Assembly (NCBI GenBank): GCA_913058335.1
Contig: CAJXPX010000004.1
Coordinates: 1-64,000, forward strand
DNA: 64,000 nt
Direction of reading: 5' to 3'
Origin: an uncultured Hyphomonadaceae bacterium
Lineage (GTDB): Bacteria; Pseudomonadota; Alphaproteobacteria; Caulobacterales; Maricaulaceae
Numbering within the stretch: the first letter of the stretch is position 1; each line of letters opens with the position of its first letter. The notes below the pieces were generated by a model. That model was not told where the DNA came from. It saw only the letters and a list, made by a program, of their open reading frames with translations, and did no database searches. Position numbers and translations under genes: made by a program. Shown one piece after another: positions 48,094 to 55,820 of this stretch.

Positions 48094-48903
48094 ATGTCTG
48101 ATCAGGTTTTTATTGTTACAGGGGCCGCGCGCGGTATTGGATTTGCCTGCGCACAGCGCCTGGTTGAGGATGGCCACCGCGTCGTTCTGGCGGATATGGA
48201 TACAGACCAAGGCTATCGCGCAGGCGAAGAACTGGCAGAGGGCACGGACCGTGCGGTCTTTGTGGAATGTGACGTGTCTGACAAATTGGAAGTGCATAAT
48301 TTGATCGCTGAAACTTTGGGCGCGTTTGGACGAATAGATGGACTGGTCAATAATGCCGGTATCGCCATAAAAGGCGGTGCGTTGGATATGAGCGTAGAAG
48401 ATTTTGACCGCAATCTGGCTGTAAACCTTCGCGGCGCGTTTTTAATTTCCAAAGCCGTGGCCAAACATATGGTCAAAGAAATAGAAGACCGCGAAGATAG
48501 ATCCCGTTTGTCTGACCGCCCTTACGCTATCGTCAATATGTCCTCTATCAATGATACGGTCGCGATACCCGATTATCTTGCCTACACAGTTTCCAAAGGC
48601 GGCTTGCTACAAATGACGAAGGCGATGGCGTTGGAGCTCGCGCCTTATGGCATTCGCGTGAATGCAATTGGTCCCGGATCCGTCAAGACGGATATGCTCG
48701 ACGGGATTGCCGGAAATGAAGACGCTATGGAGAAAATTTCAGCGCGCACGCCTCTGGGCCGGTTGGCTCTACCGGATGAAGTGGCGAGCGTGGCGTCTTT
48801 TCTGCTTTCAGAAGATGCAAGCTATATTACCGGGCAATGTATCTATGTTGATGGCGGGCGGTTGGCGCTTAATTACACAATGGAGAAAAAAACGCTCTCA
48901 TAA
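48094..48903 (+). CDS. Short-chain dehydrogenase/reductase
   Basis: A 269-residue classical SDR. The NAD(P) loop TGAARGIGFA is at residues 9-18, NNAG near 86, catalytic Ser in NMSSIND and Y-x-x-x-K in YTVSKGG; the end reads YITGQCIYVDGG. GGGAGG precedes ATG 48094; an in-frame TTG at 48082 lies inside the preceding terminator region and is not used. The substrate is unknown; sugar or acyl dehydrogenases share this pattern. The last codons also form the stem of a terminator for the opposite operon. Confidence 0.88.
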   Translation: MSDQVFIVTGAARGIGFACAQRLVEDGHRVVLADMDTDQGYRAGEELAEGTDRAVFVECDVSDKLEVHNLIAETLGAFGRIDGLVNNAGIAIKGGALDMSVEDFDRNLAVNLRGAFLISKAVAKHMVKEIEDREDRSRLSDRPYAIVNMSSINDTVAIPDYLAYTVSKGGLLQMTKAMALELAPYGIRVNAIGPGSVKTDMLDGIAGNEDAMEKISARTPLGRLALPDEVASVASFLLSEDASYITGQCIYVDGGRLALNYTMEKKTLS

Positions 48904-48909
48904 GAGCGT
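48885..48909 (-). terminator. Terminator of the AAA/DUF6638 operon inside the SDR gene end
   Basis: On the minus strand a 7-bp stem acgctct / agagcgt with a 4-base loop is followed by TTTTTTCTCC. It lies 11 bases after the DUF1523 stop and overlaps the last codons of the convergent SDR gene. Confidence 0.75.
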
Positions 48910-48919
48910 CTTGATAAAC

Positions 48920-49570
48920 CTATTTTCGGGGTTTGGTGGTCCCGAAAATTTTCCTCCAGCCGCGTCCAATCGCTGACCCGCGTTTTGACAAAGCCTCTCC
49001 GGCCTCATCAAACTCTTCCCCCAGCCTGTCCGTGATGGGATCGACATTTTTTGTTTTCCACCGATTAACCGTCCGCAAAGTCAAGAAGACAAGCAAAGCA
49101 ATAAGACCGAGAAAGACAATATTGAACCAAGGGATTAGCAGAGCGTCAGGCCCGCTGACTTTTTTGATAGAGGTCGCGTTCGGAAAGATTGAAAACAGTT
49201 TTATTCGCCAGCCATAATGACGAACCGCCACCCATTGGTCTTTGTCTCGGGCGAGATTCGCGGCATTGCCAGACACATCGCTGCTGTCGAATTTGAAATA
49301 AGGCGGGAAAGACCAGCCTGTATCCTCGTTTCGATAGGTCATAGAACGTCCATTTTTCTTGACCGTATAAATGAAACGCACATCTCGGGTCATTTGCGCG
49401 TTTGTACCAACATCGGGCCTATCCCAAAACGGCGAGACATCAGAAATGTCCATACGCTTCACATCGGTATCGACAATCTGAACGATGTCTCGGTCAGGCA
49501 GATAATAATGCGCAAGAACGGCCACGATGATAAAGGCCAAAAAGGCAAAGAACCATTTAACTGTTTTCAT
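48920..49570 (-). CDS. DUF1523 membrane protein
   Basis: A 216-residue protein with an N-terminal helix (residues about 4-22), an extracytoplasmic domain and a second helix near 148-168. The domain has the DUF1523 pattern: TRDVRFIYTV, MTYRNEDTGWSFPPYFKFDSSD, then WVAVRHYGWRI. The cytoplasmic tail is basic. Function is unknown. It is the last gene of a seven-gene minus-strand operon and lies about 30 bases after the previous gene. I know DUF1523 as a neighbour of DUF6638 and AAA genes in Rhodobacterales. Confidence 0.85.
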   Translation of the reverse strand: MKTVKWFFAFLAFIIVAVLAHYYLPDRDIVQIVDTDVKRMDISDVSPFWDRPDVGTNAQMTRDVRFIYTVKKNGRSMTYRNEDTGWSFPPYFKFDSSDVSGNAANLARDKDQWVAVRHYGWRIKLFSIFPNATSIKKVSGPDALLIPWFNIVFLGLIALLVFLTLRTVNRWKTKNVDPITDRLGEEFDEAGEALSKRGSAIGRGWRKIFGTTKPRK

Positions 49571-49600
49571 AAGACTCTCCCGAAATCATCTGGCCTAAAT

Positions 49601-49867
49601 TTATCCATATTGCGCCAGCCAGGCCAAGCCTGCAAAAATAGCGAGAGGGATAAAATAGATTCCTAAAAGCATTTTAGGACGAATGGAGCGATTATATTGC
49701 CGTAAGCCCCGTTCCACGAAATCCTGTTGGCTCTCAACCGTTTCTTGTTTGTGATATTCACTGCGCAGCTTTTGCCGCTCTCGTACATTCGCCGTGACAC
49801 TTAGCACGGCGTAAACCGCACTTAGAATGGCGAAAATAATGACGATATTTCTTATCCAGCCGACCAA
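49601..49867 (-). CDS. Small two-helix membrane protein
   Basis: An 88-residue protein with a helix at each end (about residues 4-25 and 66-85) and a charged middle with RERQKLRSEYHKQETVESQQDFVERGL. Start is TTG 49867, two bases after the DUF6638 stop, with GGGGAATTAAA before it. I do not recognise a named family, though the position in the operon is probably conserved. Both helices suggest a hairpin in the inner membrane with the charged loop facing the cytoplasm. Confidence 0.75.
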   Translation of the reverse strand: MVGWIRNIVIIFAILSAVYAVLSVTANVRERQKLRSEYHKQETVESQQDFVERGLRQYNRSIRPKMLLGIYFIPLAIFAGLAWLAQYG

Positions 49868-49869
49868 AT

Positions 49870-51318
49870 TTAATTCCCCTTACCCTTTTTTGATTTTCGA
49901 AAATTTTTCTTGCGGTAGTCTTTATAGAGCTCTCGAAAATCCTCGTCTTTTTCATTATGGGGTTTAAGTTTGTAAAGGCCGTCTTTCACAGACGCTTTTC
50001 CCCAAGGGTTTGAAAATTCTGTTTTGAGCTTAGGTTCGGGTTCTTCCATAGCGGGTTCATCACCGAACAGGGCCTCCCGCGCGCCAACCTTATCCATCGC
50101 ATATTCCTGCGCCAGAAAGTCAGAGACATAGTCTTTCTTCGACTCCGGCCAGCTTCGATAGGCCTCATAGAAAAGCGCTTTATGACAGATAAAGAGCTGC
50201 CGAAAGTCAAGGCGGGAGAGGTCGGATAAAAGCATATTCACCAGATCGCGATTTTGATGCTGGCTAGAGCGTAAGCAATAGAAAAAGGCTGGGTGCGTTG
50301 GGCCCATTTTCGGAGGACGCCCGCCCATACTGGCCCAGCGCCAGACGTCCATCAGTCCGTGAAATTCTTCCGGCATATCTTCGGCAAACCGGCGCTCCAA
50401 ATGTCGAATGTTTTGACGTGATAATCCGCCAAGATCATGGCCTTGTTCGGCTGCGACAGTGATGGTGATGAAATCCAGCTTTTGCTTGATGATGGCTGCG
50501 GTGGACTGGTTAGGCGCTTGAACAATTAATTCGCTCAGATCTTCATCACGCAGGAAATCTGCAATGTCTTCGCGATCGTCAAAGGTTAGAATTTGCTCAA
50601 TCGAGAGGTCGTCCAAGCCTTCAACCCGTTCCCGCGCAATGACAGTGGGGGTCTCTGCATCCCGGAAAATATAGACTCCGCCAAAATGGCTCGTATAATA
50701 ATTCCCTTGAGCATAAGTCTTATTGTCGAGCGTCACAGGGTTACGCTGAATATTGCCTGTGCGTTTGGCCAGCTCAATCATTTGCGCGATTAAGACATCG
50801 TCCCACCAGGCATCGTCTTCTATTATGAATTGATCTATTTTCTCAGAAAGCTCATGCGCCTCCGCGACATGCTCGGCAATCGTATCGGCTTCGATTTCGA
50901 TCTGATTGATGTGCAGGAGATCAGAAGGCGACGATATATGAAAGACCGAATTCATTAATTCCCCGGCCACAGCCTCGCGCGCGGTCAGGGCAAAAAGCTG
51001 ATTTTCATTTTCCTGAATATAGCGCCGCAGGATAGAGCGGGAGGTCGAAAACTGTGAATTCAGCAAGGGGGCTTTCATCTGCTCCGTGCTGAGCAGGATG
51101 AACATCTGATTACATCCTTTGGGATTCAGATAGAGCGTATCGCCAAACTCATCCCCGATTTCGGGTGAATAGCCGACCATGTCGATATGAAATTCCGTCA
51201 GCGTCGTCTCTCGGTCAATGAGGTGTTTCAAGGCGCGGTTATAACGCTCCACCAGAACCGGAGAGGACACTTCAATCAAATTGCCGAACATCAGGCCTTT
51301 TTTGACGAGACGCATCAT
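49870..51318 (-). CDS. DUF6638 protein
   Basis: A 482-residue soluble protein. The N-terminal LVKKGLMFGNLIEVSSPVL, the GYSPEIGDEFGDTLYLNP and FILLSTEQ stretches, and LVNMLLSDLSRLDFRQLFICHK toward the end match the DUF6638 family as I remember it from Rhodobacterales. The last about 70 residues are Lys/Glu-rich and likely disordered. No catalytic motif is evident. Its start overlaps the stop of the preceding membrane-protein gene by 4 bases, so translation is coupled. It belongs with the AAA+ ATPase encoded two genes upstream. Confidence 0.75.
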   Translation of the reverse strand: MMRLVKKGLMFGNLIEVSSPVLVERYNRALKHLIDRETTLTEFHIDMVGYSPEIGDEFGDTLYLNPKGCNQMFILLSTEQMKAPLLNSQFSTSRSILRRYIQENENQLFALTAREAVAGELMNSVFHISSPSDLLHINQIEIEADTIAEHVAEAHELSEKIDQFIIEDDAWWDDVLIAQMIELAKRTGNIQRNPVTLDNKTYAQGNYYTSHFGGVYIFRDAETPTVIARERVEGLDDLSIEQILTFDDREDIADFLRDEDLSELIVQAPNQSTAAIIKQKLDFITITVAAEQGHDLGGLSRQNIRHLERRFAEDMPEEFHGLMDVWRWASMGGRPPKMGPTHPAFFYCLRSSQHQNRDLVNMLLSDLSRLDFRQLFICHKALFYEAYRSWPESKKDYVSDFLAQEYAMDKVGAREALFGDEPAMEEPEPKLKTEFSNPWGKASVKDGLYKLKPHNEKDEDFRELYKDYRKKNFRKSKKGKGN

Positions 51319-51641
51319 GTTTTGAGCCTGAGACGATGAATGAATAGCCCTAAAAGGAGCGCCGCAATCAACTGAGCTATGGGAGGTTGAAATGCGTATG
51401 CTAAGGCGGAAGGAGTGTCTTGATTAAAAAATGAATGCCGTGTCTTAAATTGACTAAACGCATGAATTGCGTTGATAATGAATAGTGTCGCCCCGCCAGT
51501 GCCGATGGATACTAATAAGCTAGTCTTAGAGCTTGTAAGGCTGAAAAATTTTGGCACCTGAAATGCGACCCAAACACTTAATAAGACAAGCAGAGAAAAC
51601 CAAAAAACAAGCCAGGTAATTTCATGTGGTATTGGCATCAC
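51315..51641 (-). CDS. Three-helix membrane protein of the AAA operon
   Basis: A 108-residue hydrophobic protein with helices near residues 8-27, 40-60 and 85-102. No family recognised. It overlaps both neighbours by 4 bases (ATGA junctions), so it is translated together with the AAA+ ATPase before it and DUF6638 after it. A membrane anchor for the complex is a reasonable inference. Confidence 0.7.
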   Translation of the reverse strand: MMPIPHEITWLVFWFSLLVLLSVWVAFQVPKFFSLTSSKTSLLVSIGTGGATLFIINAIHAFSQFKTRHSFFNQDTPSALAYAFQPPIAQLIAALLLGLFIHRLRLKT

Positions 51642-53590
51642 CTCTTCTCTCCCAAATACCGCTTTTTCGCTTCTTCCTGCCGCCCATAGTCCCGCACCAT
51701 ATTCTCAATCGCGATTTCATCTGACTTATCGGCGTAGCGAAATTCTGAGTCGGCGTAGCGGTTGATTTCCTGAATGACCATGTCGACCGTGATCGGTTGG
51801 GACAGGTCGGCGATCATTTTTTTCTTGGTGTCATAATCTTTGGTCAGGAAGAGATCGGGTCTTTCCATCCATTCATCGGGGAGTTCGAAATCCATGGCGC
51901 GGACTTTGACCGCGTCGGTGATATTTTTAATCGCGCGTCCGGTGAAGCGGGAATCGGCTTCCTGAATGCCCTTCAAATAGGTGCCGAGTTTGGCAATGGT
52001 GTCGAGCTTGCCAATGTCCTTGGAGACTTTGTCATAGACCTTAATCAGGCCGTCCTCTTTCGGACGGGCATAGCTGTCATAGCTCGCGGCAACGGCTTTT
52101 TTAATTTGCTGCGCGGCGAAGAGGTCATGTTTGCCAACGGGAATATCGTGGTTCTTGCCCATTAAGAGGTGGAGAATGTCGATATAGTCCTCTCGCGTTT
52201 GCGGCCCATCCACCAGGAACCTCGCGCCCGCGCGCTGGCGCAGCGCGTCATCCACATTTTCGGGATAGTTGGAAAACATACCGAAGGTGCAATTCCCGCG
52301 CACTACCGTATTTGCGCCGGCAAAGCTTTCCATCAAGACGGCGGTGATTTCGAGCTGACCGGCAGAGGACTGGCGGTCGCCGCGTTTTCCTGCGAGCTGG
52401 TCAATATCGTCAATCGTGCCAAAGCCGATGACGTTGGGGTCAATCACATTATTGATAAAGGCCTTGGCGTTTTGCGCGGATTTCCCCTGATAGCTGTCGA
52501 TGGAATCGGTGGACAGGTTCTGATAGCGGAAGGCATAGCCTGCATTGGCGCAATATTCTGAGATTAACCCGGCCATCATCTGGATGAGGGTGGTCTTCCC
52601 CGTTCCCGGCGCGCCGTCGCCCATAAAGGTAAAGATAAACCCGCCAAGCTCGGCAAAGGGATTTAATTTCCGCTCGAAATCATAGGCCATCAGCATTTTG
52701 GACAGCTTCATGGCCTGATATTTTGCAATATGGTTGCCGACCACTTCATGCGGTTTTTTAAACGTCATGGTCAGCTTGGAGCTTTGCGCGCGGGCAAAGG
52801 GCGTAAAGCCGTTAATGTCGAAATTATCGGCTTCGACGCGGTAGCTGACAGAGGTAAAGGGTTTCAGGCGGGGCAGGTTTGCGGCGCGCAGCGCGACCTT
52901 GTCCATCAATTTTTCGAGGAAAGCTGTGACTACGGGGACGAGCTTGTCTTCGCTGTCTACAAACAGCGCTAAATCCTGATCGATTTCCCATAGCGCGCCA
53001 GTGAGCGCGAGCTGCGCATTATCTGTCAGGACTTCTTCGACATCACTGATTTCGGCGTTCAATTCCGACCCGTCCGCATGGGCAGAGGATAAGAGGAAAC
53101 TCGCCATATTGGCAAAGACATGGAGGCTGATCACGGCGGAGGCGGCAAGGCCTTCGGTGAACTCGGCTTGTTTGCCCGCGGGAAGCTTGCCTTGAAGGTT
53201 CTCTGTCATCAATGCGGAGAGACCCGTCTGTTCGGCATATTGATCCGAGACCAGCAAAGCTGTTGCAAGCGCGCGGCGAAGGCTGTGCAGCACATTGGCT
53301 TGTTTCGGACTGATAAGGCTATCGCCGTCATCGGCGTTTTCTACGCGGGCGATTAAATGGACGCCTTCGGGGCGGGCTGTGGATTGCGTCACAAGGCCGG
53401 GTGTGGTGGAACGAAACCGGCGGCGCGTGCCGATACCCGGGGAACGCTCTTTGGACGCCGCAGATCTGACGTCCTGTTTTTTCGCCAGACGCGGGGTGTG
53501 ATCAAAGCCGTCCAAAAGCTGCTCCGCCGCCGCATATTTTTCGCGGATTTGCGCTTCTTTTAATTCCATCAAATTACCGGAGTCCGACAT
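51638..53590 (-). CDS. AAA+ ATPase of the DUF6638 operon
   Basis: A 650-residue ATPase. Residues about 1-310 form an all-helical N-terminal region with no motif I know. The AAA+ core follows: Walker A GAPGTGKT (326-333), a Walker B-like GFGTIDDID near 389-397 with Asp-Asp instead of Asp-Glu, sensor 1 in FGMFSNYPENVDDAL and RQRAGARF with candidate arginine fingers. Helical lid sequences follow to the end. It is soluble. It probably remodels the operon partners. Seven bases separate it from the gene before, and it overlaps the next by 4. Confidence 0.85.
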   Translation of the reverse strand: MSDSGNLMELKEAQIREKYAAAEQLLDGFDHTPRLAKKQDVRSAASKERSPGIGTRRRFRSTTPGLVTQSTARPEGVHLIARVENADDGDSLISPKQANVLHSLRRALATALLVSDQYAEQTGLSALMTENLQGKLPAGKQAEFTEGLAASAVISLHVFANMASFLLSSAHADGSELNAEISDVEEVLTDNAQLALTGALWEIDQDLALFVDSEDKLVPVVTAFLEKLMDKVALRAANLPRLKPFTSVSYRVEADNFDINGFTPFARAQSSKLTMTFKKPHEVVGNHIAKYQAMKLSKMLMAYDFERKLNPFAELGGFIFTFMGDGAPGTGKTTLIQMMAGLISEYCANAGYAFRYQNLSTDSIDSYQGKSAQNAKAFINNVIDPNVIGFGTIDDIDQLAGKRGDRQSSAGQLEITAVLMESFAGANTVVRGNCTFGMFSNYPENVDDALRQRAGARFLVDGPQTREDYIDILHLLMGKNHDIPVGKHDLFAAQQIKKAVAASYDSYARPKEDGLIKVYDKVSKDIGKLDTIAKLGTYLKGIQEADSRFTGRAIKNITDAVKVRAMDFELPDEWMERPDLFLTKDYDTKKKMIADLSQPITVDMVIQEINRYADSEFRYADKSDEIAIENMVRDYGRQEEAKKRYLGEKR

Positions 53591-53597
53591 TTATATC

Positions 53598-54731
53598 CTA
53601 GCTATAACTTAAAATTTTTGTATTTTCGCCCACGACATATTTGCGCGTGCCTTGGAAAGCCTGTGCGTTTTTTTCTTCGAGCACTTGGTAGGCGCGGTGG
53701 GGCAGAATGACCGCACGCTGGGTTTCAGTTGCGCCGCTCTCCGCTCCGCCAAGAAACTTATCTAATTTATATATTTGTCGCGTGGCTGTTTTGAAAATAC
53801 CGGTTTTCTCTACCATTGTGTCCTCTGACAGGAGCGATTCCACAGTCCAAGCGAGGGCCCAATCGCTGCCTTCTTGGTGGCTGGCATCGGCTAAGACATC
53901 GCGAATTGGGCCGTGCTGTTCGGTGAAATCATGGCTATACATGGGTCCGAGGTGGAACCGCCGAAGCAATTTCGGGTGAAGCGTGTCAAAATCCGTATCA
54001 AAGCCTTTAGCGATAGTCAGGAGTTTTAGCCCGGAAACGGCCTGCGCCATCAAATGACTTTGAACGCGAGGCCAGCGTCTTTCGTCATGGGGCAGGGCGC
54101 GAGAGGCCGTATCTTCCAACTCCATTAAATAAATCGCGGGAAGGTTCGTTTGGCTGTCATAAGCCGCCCAATGGACGAGGTAACTGCGCCGTCCGCTATT
54201 CATATCTTTACCGACCCAGACAATTTGGGGGTGGTTTTGCGTCAGGAAGAGGTTTTCTTCTGCCAAACATTCATAATAAATCCGCTGGCTCATCGCATAT
54301 TGAAGCTGCGTCGGGGACGAGCGCTGCGTCAGGATATGGTTGACCATATCTTTCTTCAGACGGTCCTGAGCGGGCAGTGACTTTAAATGTTTTTTGGCTT
54401 GGGTGGCATCCGACGCCATTTGCAACACTTCACCAAAGACCGGAAAACCGCTTTCGGTTTTATCTATGCTCATGCCGCTCGGCTCCGATCCTCCGATCCG
54501 GTGGGACATCAGGAATTTATAAGACAGAGCGGTGAATGTATGGGTGAGCGAGTCGAGATAAGTCAGAAGAATTTTGGCTTCTGCGGTGGTTATCAGTTTT
54601 TCTTTATTGGAGAGGATAGTCACCTCGGAAAGGTGACTCATTATCCGTTCAAACTTTGCGAAATAGCGCCGGGTCGCCCGGGCGCTATCGAGCATTTTAT
54701 GATCGAATTGTAGGTCTTGAACGACAGACAC
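53598..54731 (-). CDS. Unknown protein of the AAA operon
   Basis: A 377-residue soluble protein that I do not recognise. It is largely helical for the first 150 residues, then mixed, with HPQIVWVGKDMNSGRRSYLVHWAAYD and LPHDERRWPRVQSHLMAQ as the most motif-like parts. Start is GTG 54731 directly after the TAA of the coiled-coil gene, with no bases between, so it is coupled to it; GGTGG lies inside that gene's end. A product that works with the AAA+ ATPase is expected from position alone. Confidence 0.7.
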   Translation of the reverse strand: MSVVQDLQFDHKMLDSARATRRYFAKFERIMSHLSEVTILSNKEKLITTAEAKILLTYLDSLTHTFTALSYKFLMSHRIGGSEPSGMSIDKTESGFPVFGEVLQMASDATQAKKHLKSLPAQDRLKKDMVNHILTQRSSPTQLQYAMSQRIYYECLAEENLFLTQNHPQIVWVGKDMNSGRRSYLVHWAAYDSQTNLPAIYLMELEDTASRALPHDERRWPRVQSHLMAQAVSGLKLLTIAKGFDTDFDTLHPKLLRRFHLGPMYSHDFTEQHGPIRDVLADASHQEGSDWALAWTVESLLSEDTMVEKTGIFKTATRQIYKLDKFLGGAESGATETQRAVILPHRAYQVLEEKNAQAFQGTRKYVVGENTKILSYS

Positions 54732-55820
54732 TTATTGACCACCACCTTGACCATAGGCATTGGCATCATGCTTCTCGACAATTTTTTCAAATCGCCGGGC
54801 AAACCGCTCATCTGCCTTGGCTTTTTCTTCGAGCACTTTACGGGCAAAGACAATGTGGTCTTCGTGAGCTTCCATCATTTCGGCCATTTTATTATTAGTG
54901 GCCGCGCCGATGGCAGACATAGCGACTTGCGCTTCTTTATCTGTGGCCACACCAATTTCGTTGATTTTATGTGCGACATCTTGTTGTTGCGCCGTTTTCA
55001 AGGATTTGGACAAGGCATCATAAAGAATGACACGTTGCTTCGTGTCAGTTTGCAACTTGTTAATCAGCACCATTTGCGTGGCGGCTTGGTTTTGTAAACT
55101 ATCGACCCAAGTTTTTCCCTTTTCGATATATCGTTCCAGCGTCTGCGACTCGGCCAGTTTGACTTGTTCTTGTTGGGCGAGGTCATTGTAATTGGCGTTG
55201 ACGGCGGCCAGCTCGCTTTCCAATTTGGCACGTTTCTTGGCGTCCTGCTCCACCGCAAGCTTGCCTTCAAGCTCGATAATCTTCGGATCCATAGACAGTA
55301 GCTCGGCTTTGATGTTCTCCAAAGTCGTGACAGCGGCTTCGCGGTTTGTCAGGGTCGTGCCAAGATTGGCCTGAACTTGATCTTTGTGCATGTTCAATTG
55401 GTTCAACTGATCCTGAAGCATAGTTTGGATCGTGTTGGATTTGGAAATCAGATCCTGAAGCTTGTCTTCAATAGACGCTGTTCTGATCCTCTCAGAGCGC
55501 AATGACTCCGATCTTTGTTTGGAAAAGAGACCCACAAACTTTTCCCAGCCTGTTCTATCGCGCATGGCGTCAAAATCTTTGGAAAAGCCGGACGTAACAT
55601 CGTCAAGGCCCAGAATTAGCTCGGCGATATTGGCGTTCATTGTATCCGCATGGGCATGGACGTCGTCCAATGACGCATTTTCGATATCTATGGTGATATC
55701 AGAGCCCATTTCCATTTTTTGCCGCGCTGTGTCTATCTTTGAAGATAGAGCGCTGATTTTGGTTTGAGCTTCTGCAACTTCTTTTTTGGACTGTTCGATT
55801 TGGGTCTCGAAATTGGACAT
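54732..55820 (-). CDS. Long coiled-coil protein heading the AAA operon
   Basis: A 362-residue protein that is helical throughout: a coiled coil about residues 1-45, a mid part with GWEKFVGLFSK near 98, and a long coiled coil about 115-270, rich in Gln, Leu, Asp and Lys. The C-terminal part has FARKVLEEKAKADERFARRFEKIVEKH. There is no signal peptide or membrane segment. The order of short coil, GWEKF segment and long coil recalls TelA-like or PspA-like proteins only loosely. ATG 55820 is chosen because GGGGGG stands right before it. First gene of the operon. Confidence 0.75.
   Translation of the reverse strand: MSNFETQIEQSKKEVAEAQTKISALSSKIDTARQKMEMGSDITIDIENASLDDVHAHADTMNANIAELILGLDDVTSGFSKDFDAMRDRTGWEKFVGLFSKQRSESLRSERIRTASIEDKLQDLISKSNTIQTMLQDQLNQLNMHKDQVQANLGTTLTNREAAVTTLENIKAELLSMDPKIIELEGKLAVEQDAKKRAKLESELAAVNANYNDLAQQEQVKLAESQTLERYIEKGKTWVDSLQNQAATQMVLINKLQTDTKQRVILYDALSKSLKTAQQQDVAHKINEIGVATDKEAQVAMSAIGAATNNKMAEMMEAHEDHIVFARKVLEEKAKADERFARRFEKIVEKHDANAYGQGGGQ

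Follow-up and report, generated by a model that had tools for sequence, protein, structure and literature searches.

Seven genes follow one another closely on the minus strand of a contig from an uncultured Hyphomonadaceae bacterium (CAJXPX010000004.1, assembly GCA_913058335.1), from position 55820 to position 48920 of the 64,000-nucleotide stretch analyzed here (the window), and the third of them encodes an AAA+ ATPase. The initial annotation read them as a seven-gene operon whose tight coupling implied fixed ratios of the products, and it considered plausible a membrane-tethered ATPase with a coiled-coil filament or the bilayer as its substrate. The question is whether all seven genes belong together and what their products might do. 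Comparison with related loci revealed that the seven-gene reading is wrong in one gene; this led to the main result, an AAA+ operon that is conserved but includes a slot whose content can be swapped.

Organization of the operon

The first core gene (54732 to 55820) encodes a coiled-coil protein of 362 amino acids (aa), designated CC and represented by a 31-row alignment. Its TAA stop codon directly abuts the GTG start of the second core gene, UNK (53598 to 54731), which encodes a 377-aa protein that was modeled with AlphaFold2. Seven bases downstream of UNK, the third core gene, AAA (51638 to 53590), encodes the 650-aa AAA+ ATPase, recognized by Pfam (PF00004) and by its motifs. The AAA gene shares the four bases GTGA, or a single base if the ATG at 51638 is the start, with a gene at 51315 to 51641 (P0004) for a 108-aa protein with three predicted transmembrane (TM) helices. 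P0004 in turn overlaps the fourth core gene (49870 to 51318; 482-aa DUF6638 protein, PF20343) by the four bases ATGA. Two bases separate the DUF6638 gene from TM2 (49601 to 49867), which starts with TTG and encodes an 88-aa two-helix membrane protein, and 30 bases separate TM2 from the gene for a 216-aa DUF1523 membrane protein (48920 to 49570; PF07509). Pfam scores were 45.7 bits for AAA (cut-off 21.2), 614 for DUF6638 (cut-off 27), and 212.5 for DUF1523 (cut-off 23), and CC, UNK, TM2, and P0004 matched no Pfam family over its cut-off. The gene positions, the stop-start junction, both 4-base overlaps, and the three short gaps are all as the initial annotation had described them.

Conservation of the core and the tail genes

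The survey set comprised 95 distinct loci carrying both AAA and DUF6638, the window included. A scan for DUF6638 yielded 22 loci, and further loci came from additional genomes. Kept outside the 95 were short loci of the same site (L001, L024 to L066, and L087 to L126), 2 duplicates, and 19 incomplete loci, namely, 8 fetched as TelA matches, 3 with CC only, and 8 with DUF6638 without AAA, five of which (L019, L165, L172, L174, and L189) are cut at a contig end, whereas a cut by itself does not account for the other three (L145, L187, and L188). DUF6638 matches at contig edges or in fragments were left unfetched in 9 of the 69 DUF6638-positive genomes of family f25 (Rhodobacteraceae-type) and in 2 of the 18 of the window's family.

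The order CC-UNK-AAA-DUF6638-TM2-DUF1523 was found in 86 of the 95 loci, and because it recurs so often, the gene cluster is not due to chance. Three of the remaining nine loci start at a cut contig, and six are without one or both tail genes: TM2 was not found in L017, L067, and L134 (3/95), where the rest is present, and L127 to L129 (3/95) carry the first four genes only. More distant versions of the four-gene core CC-UNK-AAA-DUF6638 are present in Sinorhizobium meliloti, Vibrio vulnificus, and Vibrio parahaemolyticus, in loci where no homologue of TM2 or DUF1523 turned up. The operon is thus a conserved four-gene core, accompanied in Rhodobacteraceae and the window's relatives by two lineage-specific membrane tail genes. 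Synteny, named in the initial annotation as a check, held for six genes and failed for the fourth gene of the seven, which is not conserved. The proposal of a conserved, undescribed AAA+ cluster agrees with this six-gene order across families and with our searches, in which the core had no named function. In the S. meliloti locus the full core adjoins a thymidine kinase gene, and in the two Vibrio loci (L256 and L257), on replicons of 0.88 and 0.93 Mb, the core lies directly before the mfd gene.

DUF6638 is patchily distributed. Within the class, 8 of 385 genomes had a match, 7 of these over the cut-off; the numbers were 18 of 59 genomes for the window's family, with all 5 sampled genomes of the window's genus positive, and 69 of 149 for f25. 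Four f25 genomes without DUF6638 had no AAA match at E 1e-50 either (0/4). Phylum-wide, 23 of 299 genomes had CC and 20 had UNK. In the three that make up the difference, the CC-like gene is divergent, and the 16 to 20 kb fetched held none of the other core genes. A divergent CC-like gene of this kind was seen in genus g445 (L132, 8713 to 9786, and related stretches in L130 and L131), with no UNK, AAA, or DUF6638 in 16 to 20 kb.

A hypervariable slot between AAA and DUF6638

The gap between AAA and DUF6638 exceeded 250 bp in 69 of the 95 loci. The same was true of the CC/UNK gap in 22 of 92 loci, of the UNK/AAA gap in 4 of 93, and of the DUF6638/TM2 and TM2/DUF1523 gaps in 0 of 89 each. Comparison of the AAA/DUF6638 gap with the other junctions gave Fisher p values from 2e-11 to 4e-29, for loci that are not independent. 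By a simple scheme of our own, applied to all 95 loci, 33 slots encode small membrane proteins, 29 encode larger or soluble ones, and 4 encode both. One small membrane family, defined by single linkage, is common to 19 slot loci. P0004 had no relative among the slot open reading frames (ORFs) in a phmmer search at E 1e-3. The AAA/DUF6638 junction is thus a hypervariable slot that contains small membrane proteins, larger genes of lower GC content, or nothing, and the three-helix gene of the window is one of its occupants.

A fixed complex of seven genes was ruled out, since other genes take the position of P0004 and our searches of the loci found no relative of P0004. In 28 of the 53 slots with a single ORF, this ORF overlaps both neighbors by 1 or 4 bases. 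Because swapped occupants can overlap in the same way, the overlap at the slot is no sign of a fixed complex, and the step from coupling to fixed ratios in the initial annotation does not hold. A Shine-Dalgarno-like 4-mer lies in the last 18 nucleotides (nt), stop codon included, of 78 of the 95 AAA genes, a count made without a chance control.

Many CC/UNK gaps hold small proteins with one or two TM segments. The CC/UNK gap of L150 (8887 to 9541) contains an antitoxin-like and a toxin-like ORF, both so described from reading the sequence, the second without a Pfam match. The slots of L148, L154, L155, and L178, as well as L127, contain, by reading, repeat-like intergenic sequence that gives rise to spurious-looking ORFs in some slots and may mark or assist recombination.

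Turnover of the slot between close relatives

Close pairs were defined as loci with AAA identity of at least 85%, and cargo families were defined by single linkage. Both members carried cargo in 24 close pairs, and in 6 of these the two shared a cargo family; in 6 further close pairs, one locus had cargo and the other had none. The clearest view of an exchange came from the window and L193, which belong to the same genus and share the flanking SDR and cmk genes (87% and 78% identity). DNA homology between the two ends at 51651 and restarts at 51322, within about 10 nt of the slot edges. The L193 slot, of about 760 bases, encodes a 253-aa protein of a different family from the window occupant. 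These results show that slot content has been swapped cleanly between close relatives. In L194, L196, and L197, from the same genus, no match to the window's flanking genes was found in the 10.9 kb fetched.

Slot contents

Scanned were 79 slot proteins, P0004 and the 78 of 92 slot ORFs that were at least 130 aa long or at least 80 aa long with two or more predicted TM segments. At an E value of 1e-3 or lower, Pfam assigned DUF559 (3 proteins), Mrr_cat (2), putAbiC (2), AbiJ_NTD4 (2), DUF3825 (1), and a histidine-kinase-like ATPase domain (1), with E values down to 3e-33; DUF559 members and L151 were assigned by clustering. Nine of the 11 Pfam-matched loci carry a nuclease or abortive-infection family. 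Below their own cut-offs were an HNH match in L155 (0.0012) and a DUF4145 match in L199 (0.0025). The same gap in S. meliloti contains an annotated endonuclease-domain protein and an IS4-type transposase. The GC content of larger or soluble cargo averaged 9.7 points less than that of the adjoining core DNA, with 32 of 36 lower.

Base rates came from 25 of the operon-carrying genomes that supplied the 95 loci; their listed sizes add up to about 98 Mb. The 47.5 kb of total slot encode 2 putAbiC and 2 Mrr_cat proteins, compared with 1 putAbiC and 6 Mrr_cat matches in the 25 genomes.

The slots of L012, L081, L153, L160, L162, and L193 share a family with two or three TM segments and the motif NExGDxLAG, of which two (L012 and L153) match putAbiC. 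A further family, unassigned and about 255 aa long, is common to the slots of L013, L158, L164, and L166 and may be a new defense-like one.

Probable horizontal spread

A tree of 98 AAA proteins was built with a quick method, rooted at the midpoint, and flagged for long branches. In this tree the window's family falls inside a larger group, together with rows of the Rhodobacteraceae type. The AAA of L133, a locus from another class, is 78% identical to that of L072 and groups with it (support 89) inside a fork with support of 99 that is otherwise Rhodobacteraceae-type. A flanking homologue at E 1e-20 was shared by 110 of the 946 pairs of 44 loci. Horizontal transfer of the operon is the simplest reading of these sequence comparisons. 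No record of the phage collection matched DUF6638 at E 1e-5. The 10 matching plasmid records are all replicons of 0.88 to 4.6 Mb called non-mobilizable. One tRNA was found in 34 loci.

The AAA protein

The AAA protein has a Walker A motif (GDGAPGTGKTT), a Walker B motif (IDDID), sensor-1 Asn441, and Arg453 and Arg457. Walker A, the sensor-1 Asn, and the Arg residues are kept in all 32 aligned sequences, which is why the protein should bind, and probably hydrolyze, ATP. As the initial annotation had noticed, Walker B reads Asp-Asp in place of Asp-Glu; the Asp at the position of the catalytic Glu is no peculiarity of the window, D394 and D395 being invariant (32/32), and Walker B is IDDID in Vibrio and IDDVD in S. 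meliloti. AAA proteins with Asp at the catalytic Glu position tend to be slow or specialized.

The best solved relatives in a single-sequence search were i-AAA protease, fidgetin-like 1, and Vps4 (E 4.5e-5 to 1e-3), and a profile search gave no solved chain at an E value of 1e-5 or lower. Weak matches to the phrog_168 clamp loader (3e-7), TRIP13 (1e-6), and CbbX (0.05) are taken as reflecting the shared AAA domain only. The protein resembles the Vps4/fidgetin/katanin ATPases in its AAA domain, Walker A, sensor-1 Asn, and Arg residues and in having a coiled-coil protein encoded next door. It differs from them in the Walker B Asp in place of the catalytic Glu in all 32 sequences and in that the roughly 320 residues preceding the AAA domain contain no named domain, and its presumed partner CC, unlike the Vps4 partners, matches no PspA or Snf7 model. 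No MIT model was among the Pfam matches of AAA at E of 1 or lower, by sequence profiles only.

The other core and tail proteins

Mean column identity, calculated from sets of 22 to 32 rows, was 78% for CC (31 rows), 76% for AAA, 60% for UNK, 51% for DUF6638, 48% for TM2, and 45% for DUF1523. The two highest values belong to CC and AAA, which is consistent with a motor and its putative direct client.

CC had no Pfam family at E of 1 or lower. A PspA/IM30/ESCRT-III identity found no support at the profile level: hhalign against 24 PspA-family sequences gave P values of 0.2 and 0.44, in the range of reversed controls. A near-full-length PspA match is encoded elsewhere in the window's genome (G000 C9), and a putative PspA-like gene, recognized by reading, lies with a YiaAB-like two-helix gene close to the operon in L134 (3099 to 4115). 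CC and TelA proteins (PF05816) are alike in length, in richness in helices, and, by reading, in an aromatic motif before a long helical part. The hhalign comparison was suggestive, with P 0.0022 (local) and 0.00097 (global), Prob of 13% and 9%, and reversed controls at 0.1 to 0.6, but CC against its own reverse reached 0.0076 and 0.0037, so that the TelA match does not stand out from this coiled-coil control. Unlike TelA proteins, CC has no Pfam match. With a narrower profile, Prob fell to 0.3. No TelA match was found in the window's genome.

Searched against solved chains, the profiles of CC and DUF6638 gave no convincing match, with best E values of 0.079 and 0.089. The AlphaFold2 model of UNK (pLDDT 89.0, pTM 0.87) has a mostly helical N-terminal half and a beta-rich C-terminal half, and no match at an E value of 1e-3 or lower was found in the PDB or among viral models. 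Residues 180 to 340, approximately, weakly resemble tunnelling-fold enzymes (Z of at most 5.0). Uricase, pyruvoyl-tetrahydropterin synthase, and dihydroneopterin aldolase share this fold, and among the top matches they gave Z 5.0 (3.5 Å, 119 residues), 4.4 (2.7 Å, 87 residues), and 4.3 (2.8 Å, 98 residues), respectively, with fructose bisphosphatase (4.6) and PhoU (4.3) scoring near. The DUF6638 model (pLDDT 79.4, pTM 0.73) had no PDB match at an E value of 1e-3 or lower, and a second look aligned 38 to 50 residues only, with Z of at most 4.7.

In PADLOC, run without cut-offs, the core and TM2 gave weak matches: AAA to TRIP13 (1e-6) and IetA (5e-4), CC to LmuB (8e-4), TM2 to Mem_02 (3e-3), and DUF6638 to PDC-M06B (0.012). 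In a literature search of limited coverage, DUF6638 was not mentioned, DUF1523 came up in four papers, and no function was described for the core.

The ends of the operon

Directly after the DUF1523 gene, on the minus strand, lies an intrinsic-terminator-like stem-loop followed by a T-run (48886 to 48918; -12.1 kcal/mol, z -4.65). This hairpin is absent from the output of the consensus terminator scan, in which terminator-like sites were at shuffle level (10 versus 9.5), as were promoter-like sites (7 versus 8.6). It sits between the convergent SDR and DUF1523 genes and could serve both.

Discussion

We lean, by a modest measure, toward a horizontally spread AAA+ remodeling machine whose operon doubles as a landing pad for accessory genes. 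AAA would form a ring that remodels CC or a client bound to CC, with the Asp-Asp Walker B setting a slow ATP turnover. UNK and DUF6638 may serve as adaptors or scaffold, and TM2 and DUF1523 as membrane anchors. The restriction of the tail genes to certain lineages suggests that membrane tethering was added to the mechanism and is not central to it. An ORF inserted at the stop-start overlap would be transcribed with the core, and a ribosome site within the last part of the AAA gene could serve for its translation. Selection would then retain useful passengers, defense genes included, and fast gain and loss would appear as swapping. Accessory-gene hotspots and nested defense genes likewise place variable genes of lower GC content between conserved genes. 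The slot differs from them in lying inside an operon, often overlapping both neighbors, and in showing no tRNA pattern.

Several observations weigh against this reading. Remodeling of CC by AAA is inferred from gene order and knowledge of the family. L187 and L188 have DUF6638-TM2-DUF1523 without an adjoining AAA, their genomes carrying AAA on a separate contig. The DUF6638-TM2-DUF1523 genes of L145 directly follow a polA-like gene, so named by reading, and no AAA was found in that genome, which is 77% complete; the three are fragmented or incomplete assemblies, and from their arrangements the operon can break at the slot. The slot contains only short ORFs in 5 of the 95 loci and measures at most 160 bp in 24. 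Slot ORFs were called on the operon strand only, which makes the co-orientation of cargo partly an assumption. Small membrane cargo ORFs are not lower in GC (24/43 lower, p 0.25). Only 9 loci have nuclease or abortive-infection cargo at an E value of 1e-3 or lower, most cargo being small membrane or unassigned, and the base-rate genomes have no putAbiC or Mrr match in the slot itself, the slot matches coming from other loci. PADLOC did not clearly separate the 79 cargo proteins (11 families, the commonest with 3 members) from 139 flanking ORFs (7 families with one member each), which had been obtained by calling 341 ORFs, keeping 269 after a codon-GC filter, drawing 145, and dropping 6 antisense ORFs inside the operon. 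Because this control did not discriminate, the enrichment argument rests on the two Pfam base rates.

The same slot invites a more specific proposal, possible though on balance unlikely, in which the operon would be a modular defense system whose core senses infection by phage or damage to the membrane, with the slot gene as its exchangeable effector. A variable gene does stand in a constant position, and in the 28 of 53 single-ORF slots it is joined to both neighbors. The patchy distribution, the signs of horizontal spread in the AAA tree, and the varied contexts (110/946 pairs) point in this direction, as do putAbiC, Mrr, AbiJ_NTD4, and DUF559, families typical of defense, and small membrane slot proteins might target the bilayer. 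In CBASS or retron systems, too, the effector differs from one system to the next, and modular defense systems such as CBASS resemble the operon in a constant core with a variable membrane, nuclease, or Abi gene. The operon differs from CBASS in that no cyclase or known sensor was recognized and cargo is optional. Against a defense role, the 24 loci with a gap of at most 160 bp mean that an effector is not in every locus, the PADLOC matches of the core are weak (best to TRIP13), the PADLOC control was not discriminating, and no DUF6638 match was found in the phage collection. The occupants, moreover, are so different in type that a common trigger would be needed, and none is apparent. Slightly more doubtful still is a new modular immune or stress system with the four-protein AAA+ machine as constant sensor and motor and a slot that takes exchangeable effectors. 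These would be membrane disruptors, Mrr, HNH, or DUF559 nucleases, or Abi/HEPN-type proteins, expressed and possibly armed with the core.

It is improbable that cargo is irrelevant and that AAA, as the Vps4-like ATPase of an ESCRT-like membrane system, takes apart a coiled-coil polymer at the inner membrane. This proposal draws on fidgetin-like 1 and Vps4 among the best solved relatives of AAA, on the high conservation of CC, and on the two membrane tail genes. PspA/AAA+ neighborhoods, phage-shock and ESCRT-like, are on record, and in the available part of that account (PMC11237479) they likewise combine a coiled-coil protein, an AAA+ ATPase, and membrane proteins in one operon. The window operon differs from them in its cargo slot and in a CC unrelated to PspA by profile, and UNK and DUF6638 are not named in that part of PMC11237479. 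Nor did CC match a Pfam family, the genome has its near-full-length PspA match elsewhere, and the tail genes are missing in L127 to L129 and had no homologue found in the Vibrio and Sinorhizobium loci. The AAA profile, in addition, found no solved chain at an E value of 1e-5 or lower, and the score of a clamp-loader model from phage is just as good. That the slot is a calling artifact, overlong spacers with spurious ORFs, is very improbable. The spurious-looking repeat ORFs of L148, L154, L155, and L178 and the 5 loci with only short ORFs would suit it; curated family matches, a small membrane family shared by 19 loci, the window/L193 homology break at the gene edges, and the annotated endonuclease-domain protein and transposase of S. 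meliloti do not, and for loci with family matches an artifact is refuted.

The operon represents a conserved AAA+ system common to marine and plant-associated Proteobacteria, for which no function was found in the literature searched, and it carries a slot for natural gene exchange. Should the slot genes require the core, the system would be a new modular one, and its effectors could be collected from a single position across many genomes. Should they be independent of the core, the operon would still be a clear example of an expression landing pad, with edges accurate to about 10 bases in one same-locus pair, and the unassigned slot genes would be candidate new defense genes.

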